Positions 3,645-10,736 of a stretch of 64,000 bases of DNA are shown one piece after another. Location of the stretch: assembly GCF_016904885.1 (NCBI RefSeq), contig NZ_JADWYI010000001.1:1674001-1738000 (forward strand). The letters are read 5' to 3'. The translations under genes and the position numbers were made by a program. Below the pieces are notes generated by a model. It worked only from the letters and a program-made list of their open reading frames with translations, was not told the DNA's origin and ran no database searches. How positions within the stretch are numbered: position 1 is the stretch's first letter; every line of letters begins with the position of its first letter. The stretch comes from Archangium primigenium. Its GTDB lineage: Bacteria; Myxococcota; Myxococcia; Myxococcales; Myxococcaceae.

Positions 3645-5357
3645 TCAGGGGCGCGGCGCCTGTTCGTAGAGCTCCGGCGTGTCCGAGGTCGAGTTCCTCC
3701 CGTTGTTGCCCATCACGAGCACCCGGCCATCGAGGAGCGGCGTCATCGTGAAGTCGTCGCGCCCGGAGTTCATGGGGACGGTGGGGCTCCACTGCCCCGT
3801 GGCCGGGTCGTAGAGCTCCGCCGTCTTGAGGGCGTCCGGGGTGTTGCCCCCCGCGACGAGCACCACGCCCGTGGACAGCCGGGCCGCCCGGTGCCTGGCG
3901 CGAGGCGTGCTCAGCGCTCCCTCCAGCCGCCAGGCGTCCGCGGCCGGCTCGTAGCGCTCCACCAGCGTCCCGCCGCGCTCGCCGCCCGTGACGAGCACCG
4001 AGCCATCGAAGAGCGACGTCGCCGTGAGGTAGGCGCGGGCCTCGCGGAGGTCGGCCGCGTCGCGGAAGGTGTCCGTGACCGGGTCGTACACCTCCGTGAC
4101 GCTCAAGTAGTCCTGGAGGCCGACGGCGCCGCCCGTGACGAGCACCGTGCCGTCGGGCAGCGGCGCCGCGGCGTGCGCGCGGCGACGCGAGCCCGGCGGG
4201 GTGCCCGCCTTGCTCCAGGTGCCCGTGGCCGGGCTGTACACCTCCGACGTGCTCGACCCCCCCTCCACGCCCTCGAGGAACACCCGGCCATCGCGCAGCG
4301 GCGTCAGCGTATGCCCGCGGCGCGGGTAGTGCGTGGAGCCCGTGGGACTCCAGGTGCCCGTGGCCGGGTCATACAGCTCCGCGGACCGCTCGATGGTGCC
4401 ATGGGTCGCCCATCCGCCCACGACGAGCACCCGGCCATCGGCGAGCCGGACCGCCTCATGCGTGGCGCGCGCGAAGCGCAAGGAGCCCGTGGCGCTCCAG
4501 GTGCCCGTGGCCGGGTCATACAGCTCCGCGGACGCCAGGTAGCGGTCCTGCGGGGAGGTGGCGCCCTGGCGGTAGCCGCCGGCGACGAGCACCTGGCCCG
4601 TGGCCAGCAGCGTCGCGGTGTGGTTGTCGCGGGCGGTGAGCAGCGTGCCCGTGGGCGTCCACCTTCCCGGGCCGCACGTCGGCAGGCCCGCCACCGGGAA
4701 GCTCCGGGTGGCCGTGGCGCCGAAGAAGTTGGTGACGGTGACGAGGACGCTCGGCGTCGCGGTCGTGGCGACGCACGCGGGCGCCGTCCAGGTGAACGTG
4801 TTCCGGGTCCTGTCCTCGCTCACCTCGCCCACGTTGGCCGTCCAGGAGAGGGCGAGCGGCGTGGCCAGGGGGTCTCGCGCCTCCACCTCGAAGGTGAGCG
4901 TCTGGCCCGGCTCGGCCGTGGGGCTCGACTGGCTGGCGCGGGTGATCTCCGGAATCGGGTGTCCCCCCCGGTCCCGCAGGGGGATGGGCTTGGTCTGCGT
5001 GCCGCGGGCGGGGAAGGTGAAGTGCTCGTCGTCGCTCTCGTAATGCAGCACGTGGGCGGCATCGAAGCCCTGGGCGACCACGGTGTAGGCGCCGAGGGCG
5101 GGCAGGCCCACGAGCTCCTCCGTCCAGCCCTCGGGCGTGGCGGTCAGGTCGAGCACGCGGGGCGCCTGGCCCTCGGAGAAGAGGGTGGCGGTGACGCGCG
5201 TGATGTATCCCGGGGGCGTCGGGGGGAGCGTGGCCATCAGTTGCACCGTTCCGGGACCGGCGTCCTCGGGGGGCGGCCGCGGGGGCGGGGGCGTGTCACA
5301 GCCCGCGAGAAAGACCAGGACGACGGCGAGACCTGCGTGAGCGGCGATCCGGGACAT
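3645..5357 (-). CDS. Kelch-repeat lipoprotein
   Basis: A 570-residue exported lipoprotein. The signal peptide ends in the lipobox VFLAGC (Cys about 20), followed by a Pro-rich linker and an Ig/Big-like region (about residues 30-230), then six or so Kelch blades of about 49 residues with the pattern GRVLVVGG...AELYDPATGTWS. A closed beta-propeller on the outer surface is expected; such proteins are numerous in myxobacteria and their ligands are unknown. The blades are so alike that DNA-level direct repeats are visible. The gene lies 57 bases downstream of the HTTM gene on the same strand and could be read through from it, but the function is not obviously linked. Confidence 0.85.
   Translation of the reverse strand: MSRIAAHAGLAVVLVFLAGCDTPPPPRPPPEDAGPGTVQLMATLPPTPPGYITRVTATLFSEGQAPRVLDLTATPEGWTEELVGLPALGAYTVVAQGFDAAHVLHYESDDEHFTFPARGTQTKPIPLRDRGGHPIPEITRASQSSPTAEPGQTLTFEVEARDPLATPLALSWTANVGEVSEDRTRNTFTWTAPACVATTATPSVLVTVTNFFGATATRSFPVAGLPTCGPGRWTPTGTLLTARDNHTATLLATGQVLVAGGYRQGATSPQDRYLASAELYDPATGTWSATGSLRFARATHEAVRLADGRVLVVGGWATHGTIERSAELYDPATGTWSPTGSTHYPRRGHTLTPLRDGRVFLEGVEGGSSTSEVYSPATGTWSKAGTPPGSRRRAHAAAPLPDGTVLVTGGAVGLQDYLSVTEVYDPVTDTFRDAADLREARAYLTATSLFDGSVLVTGGERGGTLVERYEPAADAWRLEGALSTPRARHRAARLSTGVVLVAGGNTPDALKTAELYDPATGQWSPTVPMNSGRDDFTMTPLLDGRVLVMGNNGRNSTSDTPELYEQAPRP
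4348..4533. repeat. 39-bp direct repeats inside the Kelch gene
   Basis: A 39-bp stretch beginning CTCCAGGTGCCCGTGGCC occurs identically at 4348-4386 and 4495-4533, exactly 147 bp (49 codons, one blade) apart; degenerate copies occur near 4212 and 3795. This is recent within-gene blade duplication or homogenisation and a potential site of copy-number slippage. Confidence 0.8.
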
Positions 5358-5414
5358 GCCCTGTCCCCCCCTGTGAAGGCGCTCACACGGCCTGGGCGCG
5401 CGACGGACTGTAGG

Positions 5415-6326
5415 TCAGACCCGTTGGCGCGCGCGAGCGAAATGCCGGGGCGCCGCTCCGAGCGCCTCCCAGCCGAAGGCGGCGAAGGTGAGCACCGCCA
5501 TGATGCCGCTGAACAGCCACAGCCCCATGAACAGCGCGATGCCCGCGTGCAGGCCCAGGGTGAGCAGCACCCAGAACAGCCGCGTCTGGCGGGGCCAGAT
5601 GAACACGCCATACCCCACCTCGACGAGCAGCGTTCCCCAGCTCGCCGCCATGGACACCCACGGCTGGTGCGCCAGCCACGTGAGATCGAAGCGGAAGAAC
5701 TGGGGTTGCATCACCGCGTCCCAGACGGCCGTGCCCTGCTGCCACGTCGCGCCCAGCGCCTTCTCCACGCCCGAGGAGACGTAGACCAGACACAGGTGCA
5801 ACTGCAGCACGCGCAGGCCCAGGGTGGCCATGGCCGAGGGCGCGTCCGAGGTCCGACCCGCTCTCACGTCCAGCGCGAAGGCCGCGCCCACGGGCAGGAC
5901 CACGCAATAGAAGAGGCTGATGTGGGCGAAGACCTCCACGCCGTAGATGAACAGGGGCGCGCTGTTCATCAACACCGCGTGGAGGAGCCAGGCCAGCGTC
6001 GCCGCCGGCCGGGTGCGCCAGCCCACGAGCAGCGCCGCGAGCGCCAGCGCGTACGCGCAGCAGAGCGCCTGGATGCTCTCGCGCGCGTTGAGTCCCCAGG
6101 GCCGCGCGAGCGCCACCCAGGTCTCCACCCGGGGCATCCACGGCGAGGCCAGGGGCGCGGTGATGCTCCAGGGCGTCAGGCCCCGGTCCCCGAACAGCTC
6201 CTGGATGTGTCCGGCCAGGCTCCAGGCCTGCGCCAGGAGCACGAGCGACACGCCGATGCGGAACACGCCCAGGGGCCGGGGCGAGGACGGGGCCAGGAAG
6301 AACGCGACCAGCCGGGTGGCCTTCAT
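5415..6326 (-). CDS. HTTM-domain membrane protein (vitamin K-dependent gamma-carboxylase-like)
   Basis: A 303-residue polytopic membrane protein with the HTTM arrangement found in vitamin K-dependent gamma-carboxylase and bacterial homologues: an N-terminal LGVFRIGVSLVLLAQAW segment, a loop MPRVETWVALARPWGLNAR, helices ending YALALAALLVGWRTRPAAT, and LRVLQLHLCLVYVSSGVEKALG followed by GTAVWDAVMQPQFFRFD. The HTTM core is complete but there is no fused C-terminal carboxylase lumenal domain. Start ATG 6326 overlaps the stop of the upstream gene as ATGA, so the two are translationally coupled. Bacterial HTTM proteins have mostly unknown substrates; the small secreted repeat protein two genes upstream is a candidate partner (inference). 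Confidence 0.82.
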   Translation of the reverse strand: MKATRLVAFFLAPSSPRPLGVFRIGVSLVLLAQAWSLAGHIQELFGDRGLTPWSITAPLASPWMPRVETWVALARPWGLNARESIQALCCAYALALAALLVGWRTRPAATLAWLLHAVLMNSAPLFIYGVEVFAHISLFYCVVLPVGAAFALDVRAGRTSDAPSAMATLGLRVLQLHLCLVYVSSGVEKALGATWQQGTAVWDAVMQPQFFRFDLTWLAHQPWVSMAASWGTLLVEVGYGVFIWPRQTRLFWVLLTLGLHAGIALFMGLWLFSGIMAVLTFAAFGWEALGAAPRHFARARQRV

Positions 6327-6838
6327 GGCCGGACCGCCTGGGCGACGGACGCCGGACGGCGCTCGAACGAGGCCTGGTAGCGCTCGGCCCAGTGGGGGCG
6401 TTGCCCCTCGTGGTAGCGCGCCAGGGGGGGCAGCCGGAACTCCTCCATCCGCAGCGAGACGGAGCGGGCCGTGGCGTGCCGGCCAAACACCTTCGCGGCC
6501 CAGGCGCGCGCGATGTCGTCCTGGCCGCCCAGCAGATGGAAGTTCAAGGACAGGCAATACATGCGCACGTCCATCACGTCGTCCGCGGTGCGCAGCTCCT
6601 CGCGCACGCGCTCGCCGGACTCGAGCGTGGTCTCGAAGGTCACCCGCACCGAGGGGGTGATGTCCGGGGCGAAGAACTTGTACTGACGGTCGGCGCCGCT
6701 CCACTGGGCATAGAAGCGCAGCGGCCGTCCGGGATGGGGCACGTGCAGCACCGAGCAGAGCACCAGCAGCAGATGCACGAGCGCCGCTCCCACCGCGAGC
6801 ACATGCCGCGGTGGCGGGAGGAGGGAAGTCGGATGCAT
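6323..6838 (-). CDS. Conserved membrane-anchored protein preceding HTTM gene
   Basis: A 171-residue protein with one N-terminal transmembrane helix (VLAVGAALVHLLLVLCSVLH) and a soluble periplasmic domain containing the phrase RFYAQWSGADRQYKFFAPDI. Similar one-helix proteins with a 'Y..FFAPD(I/V)' motif accompany HTTM genes in other bacteria, so it is probably a dedicated partner of the downstream HTTM protein. The stop overlaps the HTTM start by four bases. About 95 bases separate it from the small repeat-protein gene upstream, compatible with one transcript. No enzyme motif is visible. Confidence 0.7.
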   Translation of the reverse strand: MHPTSLLPPPRHVLAVGAALVHLLLVLCSVLHVPHPGRPLRFYAQWSGADRQYKFFAPDITPSVRVTFETTLESGERVREELRTADDVMDVRMYCLSLNFHLLGGQDDIARAWAAKVFGRHATARSVSLRMEEFRLPPLARYHEGQRPHWAERYQASFERRPASVAQAVRP

Positions 6839-7388: not shown

Positions 7389-8705
7389 CTATGCGGGCAT
7401 CCAGGGCGAGACATCATCCGCCCGTGGACCTCTGGCCACCCAGTCCACGCGCCGGCCGAGCAGCGACGCGACGTGGGCCAGCACGAGGTCCTCGCGGGGC
7501 GGGAGGGTGTCGAGGACGGGGGTGGCGGCGAGCAGCGCGCGGGTGAGCGCCTCCTGGTGCGCGAGCGAGGGCGCGGCGGCGGGCTCCAGGCGCGTGAGGG
7601 CCTGGTAGCGCGCGGCGGCCTTCCAGACGCGCAGCCGCGCGAGCAGGTCCACGTGGGTGAGCACGAGCGTGTCCACGCCGCCCACGACGTCCAGGGCGTA
7701 GCGGGCGAGGACGGCGTCGAACCAGCCGTAGCGCACGCCGCCCTGCCAGTCATTGCGCGTGTTGTGCTCGGAGATGAGCGACCGCAGCTCCGCGCTCTCG
7801 GTGGGCAGGGGCCCCGCGCCATGCCGCACCCCGTGGCAGCGCAGCACGCCCACGCGCCGCACCTCGGCCTCCACGCCGCTGTCCGCGAGCAGCGCCAGGG
7901 CGTTGTCCGGCGTGCAGCACGACCAGGTGGTGAAGGGGTGGAAGCCGCGCCATTCGTCGAGCAGCACGCCCTGGGCGCCCTCGAACACGGTGGCGGGCGT
8001 GTCCCTCATCCACGCGCCGAGCGTCGTGTCCGGGGCCACCAGCCCGAGCGCCGCCACGCGCGCCGTCCGCGCGAGCCAGGTGTCGATGACGCCCGGGTGC
8101 TCGAGCACGGCGCGCTCCTGGCGCACGGCCTCGGTGTCGGGCGGGGACAGGGCGCGCAGCTCGGCGTGCTTGCGCTCGCGGAGGCGCTGGAGCTTGAGCG
8201 CGAGGCGGGCGGGGGCGAGCAGGTCGCCCGCGTGGACGGTGTCCTCGGGAAAGGCGAGCGCGTCCTGGACCGTCTCGCCCACGCCCACTCCGCACGAGCC
8301 ATGGCGGGCCTCGCCGCGCGCCAGCTCCCGCAGCCGGTTCATCGCCTGGTGGAAGGGGGTGATGACGCGTGCGCGCTCGCTCACGCGCAGCCGCTCGAAG
8401 ATGTCGCCCACGCCCCGCGCGCGCAGCAGGTCCCCCTCCAGCAGCAGCGCGGTGGGGTGCAGCACGAAGGGGTGGGCGAGGAACGTGCGCACGCCGGGCA
8501 CGAACGCGCCCGCGCCGAACTGGGCGAAGGTGTGGTGCTGGCCCTCGCGGGTGACGACGTTGTGGCCGGCCTGGGCGCCGCCGTTGTAGCGCACCACCAG
8601 GCCCGCCCCGTCGCGCCGCACGAGCCAGTCCGTCACCAGCCCCTTGCCCGCGTCCCCGAAGCCCAGGTCCACGACGATGGAGACGCGCCGGGCCCCCCGC
8701 GTCAT
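7389..8705 (-). CDS. Divergent adenylosuccinate synthetase-like protein
   Basis: A 438-residue PurA paralogue. Recognisable landmarks: the GTP loop GFGDAGKGLVTDWL (PurA: GDEGKGK), RYNGGAQAGHNVV (PurA: RxxGGxNAGH), FEGAQGVLLDEWRGFHPF (PurA: FEGAQGxLLD), GVRYGWFDAV (PurA: RCGWFD) and LTHVDLL where PurA has LTKLD. The fold and GTP/IMP-type site are retained but several catalytic neighbours differ, notably the guanine-specificity NKxD-like motif. Housekeeping PurA would not sit in this operon: it overlaps the VWA gene (ATGA) and follows a pseudokinase. It may ligate an amino acid to a purine or another base, or act as a regulatory GTP sensor; both are inference. Confidence 0.8.
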   Translation of the reverse strand: MTRGARRVSIVVDLGFGDAGKGLVTDWLVRRDGAGLVVRYNGGAQAGHNVVTREGQHHTFAQFGAGAFVPGVRTFLAHPFVLHPTALLLEGDLLRARGVGDIFERLRVSERARVITPFHQAMNRLRELARGEARHGSCGVGVGETVQDALAFPEDTVHAGDLLAPARLALKLQRLRERKHAELRALSPPDTEAVRQERAVLEHPGVIDTWLARTARVAALGLVAPDTTLGAWMRDTPATVFEGAQGVLLDEWRGFHPFTTWSCCTPDNALALLADSGVEAEVRRVGVLRCHGVRHGAGPLPTESAELRSLISEHNTRNDWQGGVRYGWFDAVLARYALDVVGGVDTLVLTHVDLLARLRVWKAAARYQALTRLEPAAAPSLAHQEALTRALLAATPVLDTLPPREDLVLAHVASLLGRRVDWVARGPRADDVSPWMPA

Positions 8706-9673
8706 TTGAAGAGCTGGACGATCCGCCCGAGCACGCCCTCGGGGGACTTGCCGCCCGTCATCGCCGGGCCCCCCGTGCGGCCCAGGGCCTCGGCCAGGGG
8801 CGTGAGCGCGCGCATGACCGAGCTCAGGTCGCCGTACTCCAGGCCCATGTCCTTGAAGACGCGGCCCAGCGCGTCCATGTCCGGCACCAGGCCCTCGTAC
8901 AGGCACACGGCGCCCGCGCTCACGTAGCAGATGTCCTGGGGGTTGCTCATGCACAGCACGTGGTCACCCAACAGCTCGCGCCACCGCGCCTCGCAGTTCT
9001 CGCGGCGCTTCTGGTCCGGGATGACGAAGAAGGGCACGAACGTCTTCTGCAGCTCGGCGACGATCTCCTCGGCCGTCAGGTCCTGGTCCAACCGGTCCCC
9101 GATGAGGCTCTCCACCACGTGCTTGGACAGCGAGGGAAAGGGCAGCTCGTCCCCGGTGAGGAAGACGTAGCCCTTCTTCTGGCGCTTCTCCCAGCAGTCC
9201 ATCGCCGTGTGCTGGGCGAGCGTGTAGAGCGCCAGCTCGTAGCTCTCGTGGTTGTTGCCGCCGCCCCGGCCCTCCAGGTAGCTCCAGGTGAGCCACTGGT
9301 CCATGAGCTGCGCGGTGGACTCGAACTGGCCCACCTGCAGCGGGGCCTGATCGCTCGTCGCGTCACCCACCGCCATGAAGAGCAGCTGGGGATCCTTCAC
9401 GTGGCAGTCGGTGAGGATCTTCATGAACTTGGGCAGCATCTGCGTGGCCATGAGCTTGGGGATGGTGCCCATGGAGCCCGTCACGTCCAGCGCGAACACG
9501 ATGCCCAGCGAGTTCGGGTGCTCCGCGCTGTCGCGCGCCTCGCGCAGGCGCAGCCCCTTGGGGTTCATCAGCGGATGGCACCCCGTCTGTTGAAACACCT
9601 CCTGGACGGGCTCCTTCGCGCGCTTCTGCACGATGGCGTCGTGCGCCTGGCTGCTGTAGTTGCCATACCCCAT
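8702..9673 (-). CDS. VWA-domain protein of the PurA-like operon
   Basis: A 323-residue soluble protein with a von Willebrand factor A domain. The MIDAS is DVTGSMG (about residue 84, the usual DxSxS becoming DVTGS), followed by helices and LLFMAVGDATSD and GYVFLTGDELP, which supply the later metal ligands. No signal peptide, so it acts in the cytoplasm as a metal-dependent scaffold. ATG 9673 is chosen because ACAGGAG lies 8 bases upstream and the conserved MGYGNYSSQAHD begins there. It lies 34 bases after the pseudokinase gene and overlaps the synthetase-like gene, so the three are probably one unit. VWA plus kinase-like pairs recall TerY-P-type modules, but no phosphatase or Ter gene is here. 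Confidence 0.82.
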   Translation of the reverse strand: MGYGNYSSQAHDAIVQKRAKEPVQEVFQQTGCHPLMNPKGLRLREARDSAEHPNSLGIVFALDVTGSMGTIPKLMATQMLPKFMKILTDCHVKDPQLLFMAVGDATSDQAPLQVGQFESTAQLMDQWLTWSYLEGRGGGNNHESYELALYTLAQHTAMDCWEKRQKKGYVFLTGDELPFPSLSKHVVESLIGDRLDQDLTAEEIVAELQKTFVPFFVIPDQKRRENCEARWRELLGDHVLCMSNPQDICYVSAGAVCLYEGLVPDMDALGRVFKDMGLEYGDLSSVMRALTPLAEALGRTGGPAMTGGKSPEGVLGRIVQLFK

Positions 9674-9707
9674 GGTCGCTGCTCCTGTGTGGGTCCGGCC
9701 CGTCGCC

Positions 9708-10736
9708 TCACGGCATGACGAGCGGCTGGAAGCTCGGGGGACCGAAGACCGCGCGGCCCACTTCACCAACCCGCTCGCGCAGTGTCCAGGCCAGGTCCCC
9801 CCCCTCCGAGGTGTATTCGCCCCGGGCCACCTGGCGCAGGAGCAGCGCCAGGGGCGCGGGCACGGCGCCGGGCACGCTCCCGCGCTCGGGGTCTCCTCCC
9901 AGCACGGCGACGAGGCAGCGGGCGCTCATGGCCACGTCGTCCTCGGGCCTTAGCCGCCGCGTGCCCGTGACGTCGCCCGGGTAGAAGTCGCGGTAGTACG
10001 GGTGGAAGGCGCGCAGGGGCTCGCCGAGGCGCTCCGCGCAGGAGAAGCCCACCAGCCGCACGCCGTGCTCCCCCGTCTGCACGAGCAGGTGGGGCGGCAG
10101 CACCGCCCCGTGGACATAGCCCGAGCGGTGAAGGAACGAGAGGGCCTCCAGGACGCGCCGCCACATCCACACGGACGTCTGGGGGGGCACGCCCGCGGGG
10201 TAGACGCGGCGCGCGTCCTCGAGCGTGCGCACGAAGCCGCCAGGCCAGCGCAGCACCAGGGCGTGCCGGCCCGCGTGGGGGCCCGCGCTCAGCTCCCCGC
10301 GCGTCACCGGCTGGGGCAGCAGCGCGGTGAAGGTGGGCGCGCCATCCGCCTGGCTGGCCTGGAGCGCGCGCAGCACCTCCCACTCGTGGTCGAGCAGGGG
10401 CAGGTGCGCGGGGTCGCGCAGCACCTTGATGAGCACGCGCTCGGTGGGCGTGCGGGCCCGCTCGGCGACGTAGACGTCCGTCATGCCGCCCTGGCCCACG
10501 CGCGGCCCCGGGGCCCAGTGGCTCGTGCCCAGCGTCCACCACTGCGTGTAGCCGTGCGTCGCCGGGTCGTTCCACTCCGCCCACGCCCGCTGGAAGCGCG
10601 AGGCGTGGACGGCCAGGGGATCCACCTGCACGGTGGTGCCGCAGTAGTCGCAGACGACCGAGGGGGCGAAGCGCCGGGGCGCGAGCGGCGCCTGGCACTG
10701 GGGACACTTCACCACTCTCTCGGTCGTCTGGAGCAC
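9708..10736 (-). CDS. Zinc-ribbon protein with kinase-like (pseudokinase) domain
   Basis: A 342-residue protein. The N-terminus holds a zinc ribbon (CPQC...CDYC, residues about 11-33). A protein kinase-like domain follows: glycine loop VGQGGMTDVYVAE and VLIKVL supply the P-loop and Lys, but the catalytic loop reads YVHGAVLPPHLLV, lacking the HRD Asp and the Asn, and LVGFSCAE replaces DFG. Catalysis by the canonical mechanism is therefore unlikely. It heads the operon with the VWA and PurA-like genes. Possible role: scaffold or nucleotide sensor regulating the other two. A RIO/ABC1-like atypical kinase cannot be excluded. Confidence 0.78.
   Translation of the reverse strand: MLQTTERVVKCPQCQAPLAPRRFAPSVVCDYCGTTVQVDPLAVHASRFQRAWAEWNDPATHGYTQWWTLGTSHWAPGPRVGQGGMTDVYVAERARTPTERVLIKVLRDPAHLPLLDHEWEVLRALQASQADGAPTFTALLPQPVTRGELSAGPHAGRHALVLRWPGGFVRTLEDARRVYPAGVPPQTSVWMWRRVLEALSFLHRSGYVHGAVLPPHLLVQTGEHGVRLVGFSCAERLGEPLRAFHPYYRDFYPGDVTGTRRLRPEDDVAMSARCLVAVLGGDPERGSVPGAVPAPLALLLRQVARGEYTSEGGDLAWTLRERVGEVGRAVFGPPSFQPLVMP

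Follow-up and report, generated by a model that had tools for sequence, protein, structure and literature searches.

A VWA protein, a predicted pseudokinase and a divergent adenylosuccinate synthetase relative form a putative purine-ligase cassette in bacteria and large phages

What is a divergent relative of adenylosuccinate synthetase (AdSS) doing in an operon with a VWA protein and a kinase-fold protein, in a bacterium whose canonical purA lies elsewhere? The question is raised by a stretch of 64,000 nucleotides from the myxobacterium Archangium primigenium (genome 9.5 Mb; NCBI RefSeq assembly GCF_016904885.1, contig NZ_JADWYI010000001.1, positions 1,674,001 to 1,738,000), here called the window, to the whole of which all position numbers refer. 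On the minus strand a zinc-ribbon pseudokinase, a VWA protein and a PurA-like protein are encoded in that order as a single operon. An earlier note made from the letters alone had described three coupled genes outside purine synthesis, with a possible role in conflict, stress or signalling; its positions and the motifs that it quoted are correct, apart from the start of the PurA-like gene, which most likely lies at 8705. We hold it somewhat probable that the three products make up a purine-ligase cassette, in which the PurA-like protein would be a ligase dependent on guanosine triphosphate (GTP) that activates a 6-oxopurine and couples it to some amine that is not aspartate; the VWA protein would be its obligate partner and the pseudokinase an adaptor.

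Linkage across bacteria and phages

Bacterial loci, 80 in all, were collected with the VWA protein as query from one-genome-per-species data, so that the counts are those of sampled genomes and similarity-ranked searches. Kinase, VWA and PurA-like genes follow one another in the same order and on the same strand in 64 of the 65 loci with full flanks, across five phyla, and all three are still found in 11 of the 15 whose flanks are incomplete. Because the order recurs in this way, the coupling of the three genes, which the earlier note had described, is far beyond chance. Neither of the note's refuting conditions holds, since homologues keep the VWA and kinase partners and a canonical purA lies elsewhere in the genome. 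The single exception (L093) has two VWA genes, with no PurA-like gene nearby. The gap between the VWA and PurA-like genes has a median of 13 nt (172 pairs); at L022 a helicase gene is inserted there, and L096 has two VWA genes.

The arrangement is also common in large phages. With the VWA protein as tblastn query there were matches in 207 phage records, Mycobacterium phages accounting for 188, and with the PurA-like protein in 226, a minority of which are of the canonical type; the VWA and PurA-like genes are paired in about 190 Mycobacterium phage records. A lytic Bixzunavirus (L152) carries the full triad, annotated as a kinase, a hypothetical protein and a '2-aminooxy adenylosuccinate synthetase', and the VWA and PurA-like genes are found together in two jumbo phages, Vibrio phage Va1 and Rhizobium phage TM30. 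Plasmids of Rhodococcus, Tsukamurella and Agrobacterium vitis have all three. A scan of IMG/VR turned up a VWA relative in 416 viral stretches, and among the best 80 of these, less two Variovorax-like contigs, the PurA-like gene is beside the VWA gene in 77 of 78, the odd one ending at a contig edge, and a kinase is detected in 32 of the 78. The VWA protein is the universal partner in the cassette and the kinase can be missing. With gene order kept across phyla and in phages, chance neighbours are ruled out.

Within bacteria the cassette recurs in at least five phyla and is patchy and accessory. There is a VWA match, in a few cases weak, in 36 of 195 Myxococcota genomes, a clear one in 6 of 398 genomes of the phylum of Variovorax, and matches in 2 of the 195 genomes from the Verrucomicrobium phylum and in 6 of 201 from that of Leptolinea (Chloroflexota). 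Such a distribution suggests movement between large phages and bacteria. In the PurA-like tree rows of different phyla interleave, Archangium with Chloroflexota for instance, as expected for horizontal transfer, keeping in mind that long branches within the clade leave internal positions unsure.

The AdSS relative and its two partners

The PurA-like protein is homologous to AdSS over its full length (204.8 bits against the Pfam Adenylsucc_synt model, cut-off 27), and its AlphaFold model, a confident one with a predicted local distance difference test (pLDDT) score of 93, matches AdSS along the whole length (Z 44, root-mean-square deviation 2.3 A, 396 residues, 26% identity). In agreement with the earlier note, it is not the housekeeping enzyme, for a canonical purA is present elsewhere in the genome (G000:C1:3697985) and scores 615 bits where the PurA-like protein scores 205. 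The latter fails both equivalog cut-offs for PurA (TIGR00184, 132.7 vs 395.55 bits; PRK01117, 168.2 vs 402). Of five other cassette-bearing genomes tested, those of Variovorax, Massilia, Verrucomicrobium and Acidobacteria likewise have a canonical PurA elsewhere; in the Chloroflexi one it is fragmented.

The residue survey covered 78 bacterial sequences and a second set of 34 diverse ones, phage members among them. Numbering is that of E. coli PurA, in a sequence that we take to be correct and whose alignment to the canonical copy of this genome shows no conflict. None of the catalytic residues, D13, K16, H41 and Q224, varies (78/78 and 34/34), and the P-loop GDxGKG and D333 are also shared with canonical PurA. 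The aspartate loop, TTGRxRR, is in contrast replaced throughout the family by [W/Y/F]QGxx[R/K], one residue shorter (WQGxxR in the window protein), with position 300 mostly aromatic in place of Thr, T301 changed to Gln and G302 retained, the QG itself being invariant in both sets (78/78 and 34/34). R303 is lost; alignment here is ambiguous by one residue, and in either register one residue is gone and one Arg invariably kept. V273 is His in every sequence of both sets, Gln takes the place of N38 in almost every one, Cys is the usual residue for T129, there is no conservation at R143, and K331 has given way to His or Cys in almost all, to His in the window protein. The motifs in the latter are GFGDAGKG, which is kept, GGAQAGH for GG(H)NAGH and LTHVD for LTKLD, and the survey extends to the family what the earlier note had read from them, that specificity sites are altered. 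In solved AdSS structures N38, T129 and, from the other subunit, R143 touch the phosphate of inosine monophosphate (IMP), V273 and R303 the ribose and K331 the guanine, while aspartate is gripped by the loop 300-305 including R303 (PMC11571797, PMC11276676, PMC8342488); the contact readings for the PurA-like residues rest on these homologous structures.

VWA-linked PurA-like proteins form a single clade apart from PurA and PurZ, with ultrafast bootstrap and SH-aLRT (Shimodaira-Hasegawa approximate likelihood ratio test) values of 100/99, in a tree whose other rows were seven canonical PurA and two PurZ-type sequences (one PurZ0 and one relative). PurZ and PurZ0, which serve 2-aminoadenine synthesis in phages, are also phage AdSS relatives, and the earlier note had brought up PurZ as a precedent for repurposing. 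The likeness does not go far. PurZ has Ser at position 13, as seen in the PurZ0 of Acinetobacter phage SH-Ab 15497, and the aspartate loop; the PurA-like family has Asp13 in all its members and has lost the loop. The window protein is far under the NCBIfam PurZ cut-off (56.7 vs 300), and its model compares with PurZ at a Z of about 35. Membership of PurZ is ruled out by Asp13, the lost loop, the low score and the separate clade. In the one PurZ phage record inspected there is no VWA or kinase among the named genes. The family points to a second route by which AdSS has been repurposed: in PurZ the purine-reading residue was changed and aspartate kept, whereas here that residue was kept and aspartate would have been dropped.

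Database labels of PurA or PurZ for the cassette enzyme are contradicted by its residues. A single PHROGs model, phrog_1211, lumps PurA, PurZ and the PurA-like family as '2-aminooxy adenylosuccinate synthetase', and this is probably the source of the misleading names in phage records. A 2026 survey of PurZ (PMC12884076) leaves, by subtraction, most of its 481 phage AdSS homologues outside the PurA and PurZ groups, and the passage concerned does not discuss them further.

A second AdSS paralogue in the same genome has a different character. It is fused behind a P-loop domain (L100, G000:C1:2511000-2520000, frame 4112-6760, minus strand). Position 13 is Ser, the aspartate loop is retained and a small tree places the protein with phage PurZ0 (100/99), which makes it a candidate chromosomal PurZ-like protein. 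The only other PurA-like matches in the genome are copies of this fusion gene on a 15182 bp contig (L101, G000:C2) in which, over its whole length, the C1:2511-2520k region is present twice, in opposite orientations and with damaged reading frames; the contig looks like an assembly artefact.

The VWA protein has no significant Pfam match, and its profile finds nothing credible among the sequences of solved structures. The predicted fold is nevertheless that of a VWA/integrin-I-like (Rossmann) domain (Z 15.4, residues about 53-299) with a DxSxS...D site, for which metal binding is predicted; the metal-ion-dependent adhesion site (MIDAS) residues D63, S67 and D175 are conserved in the paired VWA/PurA-like alignment. 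Outside this domain, where the prediction is of low confidence (pLDDT about 53 for residues 1-10), there is an N-terminal motif M-G-x-[GS]-x-[YWF]-[SD]. Among 188 distinct proteins M-G is present in essentially all, Gly2 in 188/188, position 4 is Gly or Ser in most and position 6 is aromatic in all. Met1 follows in part from the way in which starts were assigned, to the Met closest to the beginning of the profile. Gly2 does not, and its conservation in the paired alignment is near that of the MIDAS residues.

The kinase of the cassette is, judged by its residues, a pseudokinase. The window protein has HGAVLPPH where HRD is expected (HRD to HGA) and VGFS for DFG (DFG to GFS), and retains the VAIK Lys and the alpha-C Glu. 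Across 141 homologues there is not one with both catalytic Asps, of HRD and DFG, and the window protein has neither, in agreement with the earlier note, which had described a kinase fold lacking catalytic residues; the VAIK Lys is mostly kept. By itself the window protein is a weak match (Pfam E 0.07), but a profile built from the family reaches protein kinases with E about 1e-12; the Kdo/WaaP kinase model is also hit by many of the members. At the N-terminus 94 of the homologues have a zinc ribbon and 22 a J-domain-like HPD motif, and two of the HPD-bearing members, when checked, gave DnaJ matches at weak E-values.

Readings of the cassette

As the base-contacting D13 is kept, the purine is likely to be IMP-like. 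With the aspartate loop and the contacts to 5'-phosphate and ribose replaced throughout the family, the acceptor amine would not be aspartate and the donor is probably not plain IMP. That the chemistry is retained while the acceptor site is rebuilt speaks for a ligase with a different amine substrate. The PurA-like protein would bind GTP and phosphorylate O6 of the 6-oxopurine by means of D13, H41 and Q224, after which the amine would displace the phosphate. The metal site of the VWA protein could hold or present the second substrate, and the pseudokinase, by its zinc-ribbon or J-domain-like N-terminus, could be a non-catalytic adaptor that recruits clients, the three perhaps acting as a complex. 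If the ligase is active there is a purine conjugate to be found, in the form of a modified nucleotide or of a protein so modified, and we found no earlier search for such a conjugate.

Several points weigh against a ligase of this kind. With its phosphate and ribose contacts altered, the protein may no longer turn over. The change of K331 to His or Cys would weaken the expected GTP specificity, so that the energy donor could differ. The PurA-like model is of a single chain and cannot show a complex. Covariation between the VWA N-terminus and the PurA-like loop speaks neither way: in the raw scores the top partners of VWA positions 4 and 6 are in the loop, and within-cluster permutation gave no consistent enrichment for it.

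What the product might be is a matter on which narrower proposals differ. One possibility, though not the likelier outcome, is a small N6-amino-acid or N6-amine purine nucleotide that serves as a signal or goes into modified DNA or RNA, much like the product of PurZ. The kept AdSS chemistry is in its favour, phages already use PurZ in this way (PMC8342488), and near some loci there are NrtR-type NUDIX regulators and NADAR, phosphoribosyltransferase (PRTase) and NUDIX genes. The obligate partner is a VWA protein, however, and no nucleotide kinase, phosphohydrolase or polymerase is shared across genera; PurZ, moreover, retains the aspartate loop that the PurA-like family does not.

Rather doubtful is the proposal that the PurA-like protein works not as a ligase but as a switch or sensor that binds GTP and reports purine nucleotide levels to the VWA protein and the pseudokinase, its acceptor site having decayed. 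Contacts to the IMP phosphate, ribose, guanine and aspartate are all altered, the partner kinase is catalytically dead by its sequence and an NrtR-type regulator, of a nucleotide-sensing family, is present at some loci, all of which such a switch would accommodate. Invariance of D13, H41 and Q224 across phages and several bacterial phyla speaks for chemistry instead, and the invariant replacement loop is not what decay would be expected to leave.

A more specific form of the ligase proposal, which we think quite unlikely as it stands, has a protein as acceptor: Gly2 of the VWA protein, freed by Met removal, would enter the former aspartate site, its alpha-amine would attack the activated purine, and the product would be an N6-linked purine nucleotide on the N-terminus. 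Because AdSS uses the alpha-amine of aspartate, the exposed alpha-amine of Gly2 would be chemically equivalent. Were it true, an enzyme repurposed from purine synthesis would be carrying out a new kind of post-translational modification, one common to phages and bacteria. That the gene is just an extra PurA, or PurZ, beside VWA and kinase genes by chance is highly improbable, since the full-length AdSS homology and the GenBank names of phage members (PurA-like or '2-aminooxy adenylosuccinate synthetase', probably accounted for by the PHROGs lumping) are set against scores far under the NCBIfam cut-offs, a separate clade without the aspartate loop and a triad kept across phyla.

Locus layout, comparisons and neighbouring genes

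The features of the window locus are collected in the table. The VWA gene has an AGGAG ribosome-binding site 8 nt ahead of its ATG, and its overlap with the PurA-like gene leads one to expect translational coupling. The latter most likely starts at the ATG at 8705 and not at the far end of the open frame, in which case 8706-8954 is merely an upstream extension of that frame.

Table. Features of the cassette in the window
Feature	Position	Strand	Length and start	Details
Predicted pseudokinase with N-terminal zinc ribbon	9708-10736	minus	342 aa, GTG start	CPQC...CDYC
Gap from pseudokinase stop to VWA start	9674-9707	minus	34 nt	junction sequence; AGGAG ribosome-binding site
VWA protein	8702-9673	minus	323 aa, ATG start	MIDAS DVTGS, distal TGDE Asp
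Overlap of VWA stop and PurA-like start	8702-8705	minus	4 nt	ATGA; junction sequence
AdSS-like putative ligase (PurA-like)	7389-8705	minus	438 aa	catalytic residues kept, aspartate loop swapped

The TerY-P triad comprises the TerY VWA protein, a zinc-ribbon kinase and a PP2C phosphatase. It too is a small operon for a VWA protein, a zinc-ribbon protein of kinase fold and a third enzyme, but here an AdSS-like enzyme takes the third place, the kinase is predicted to be dead and the VWA protein lacks a significant Pfam match; no PP2C gene turned up at the cassette loci read, with no Ter profile search made. A VWA 'peptide-binding chaperone' with NrtR/Nudix regulators has been described in ADP-ribose conflict systems (PMC9503650). 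The theme of a VWA protein with a Nudix-type regulator is common to both, though AdSS is unmentioned there and no ADP-ribosyl hydrolase was noticed at the cassette loci. In the open-access literature no description of the combination of VWA protein, PurA-like protein and pseudokinase was found. A role in conflict, one of those envisaged in the earlier note, is without direct support: PADLOC (2023 library) has no model for the VWA or PurA-like protein and only kinase-domain matches for the pseudokinase, the neighbours at the loci read include no recognisable defence genes, and large phages, a lytic Bixzunavirus among them, carry the cassette as well.

Beyond the triad no neighbour is common across genera at the bacterial loci, only within a genus or among close relatives, and a larger operon is ruled out on this account. 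A regulator with NrtR-type NUDIX and winged-helix domains adjoins the cassette in several Alpha- and Betaproteobacteria and, as a weaker and degenerate match, in Actinomycetota (the loci are L273, L274, L275, L272, L156, L033, L049, L070, L155 and L157), a hint that a nucleotide signal exerts control. Further nucleotide-handling neighbours at some loci are NADAR, PRTase and NUDIX genes.

In one myxobacterial genome an AAA+ ATPase gene is in the place of the kinase gene, and this variant (L147, G071:C90:124000-140000) encodes besides the ATPase a very divergent VWA protein starting MGGGGSYYD, a pyruvate-kinase-like protein and a PurA-like protein. In 33 viral loci (L181-L254), mostly those without a detected kinase, a conserved gene for about 120 aa is situated about 370 nt before the VWA gene; the one member checked has no Pfam or PHROG match. 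Other neighbours may reflect lineage-specific synteny and were not used as evidence. Four loci of one myxobacterial genus, g23 (L132, L133, L134 and L139), and L146 have a second VWA gene after the PurA-like gene and then a DEAD-box RNA helicase, and at L146 a helicase gene is between the VWA and PurA-like genes. In some phages genes for TROVE/Ro60, RtcB, Swiss-army-knife HAD and R2K ATP-grasp proteins are within about 5 kb of the cassette, as at L181, L226, L227 and viral loci related to these.

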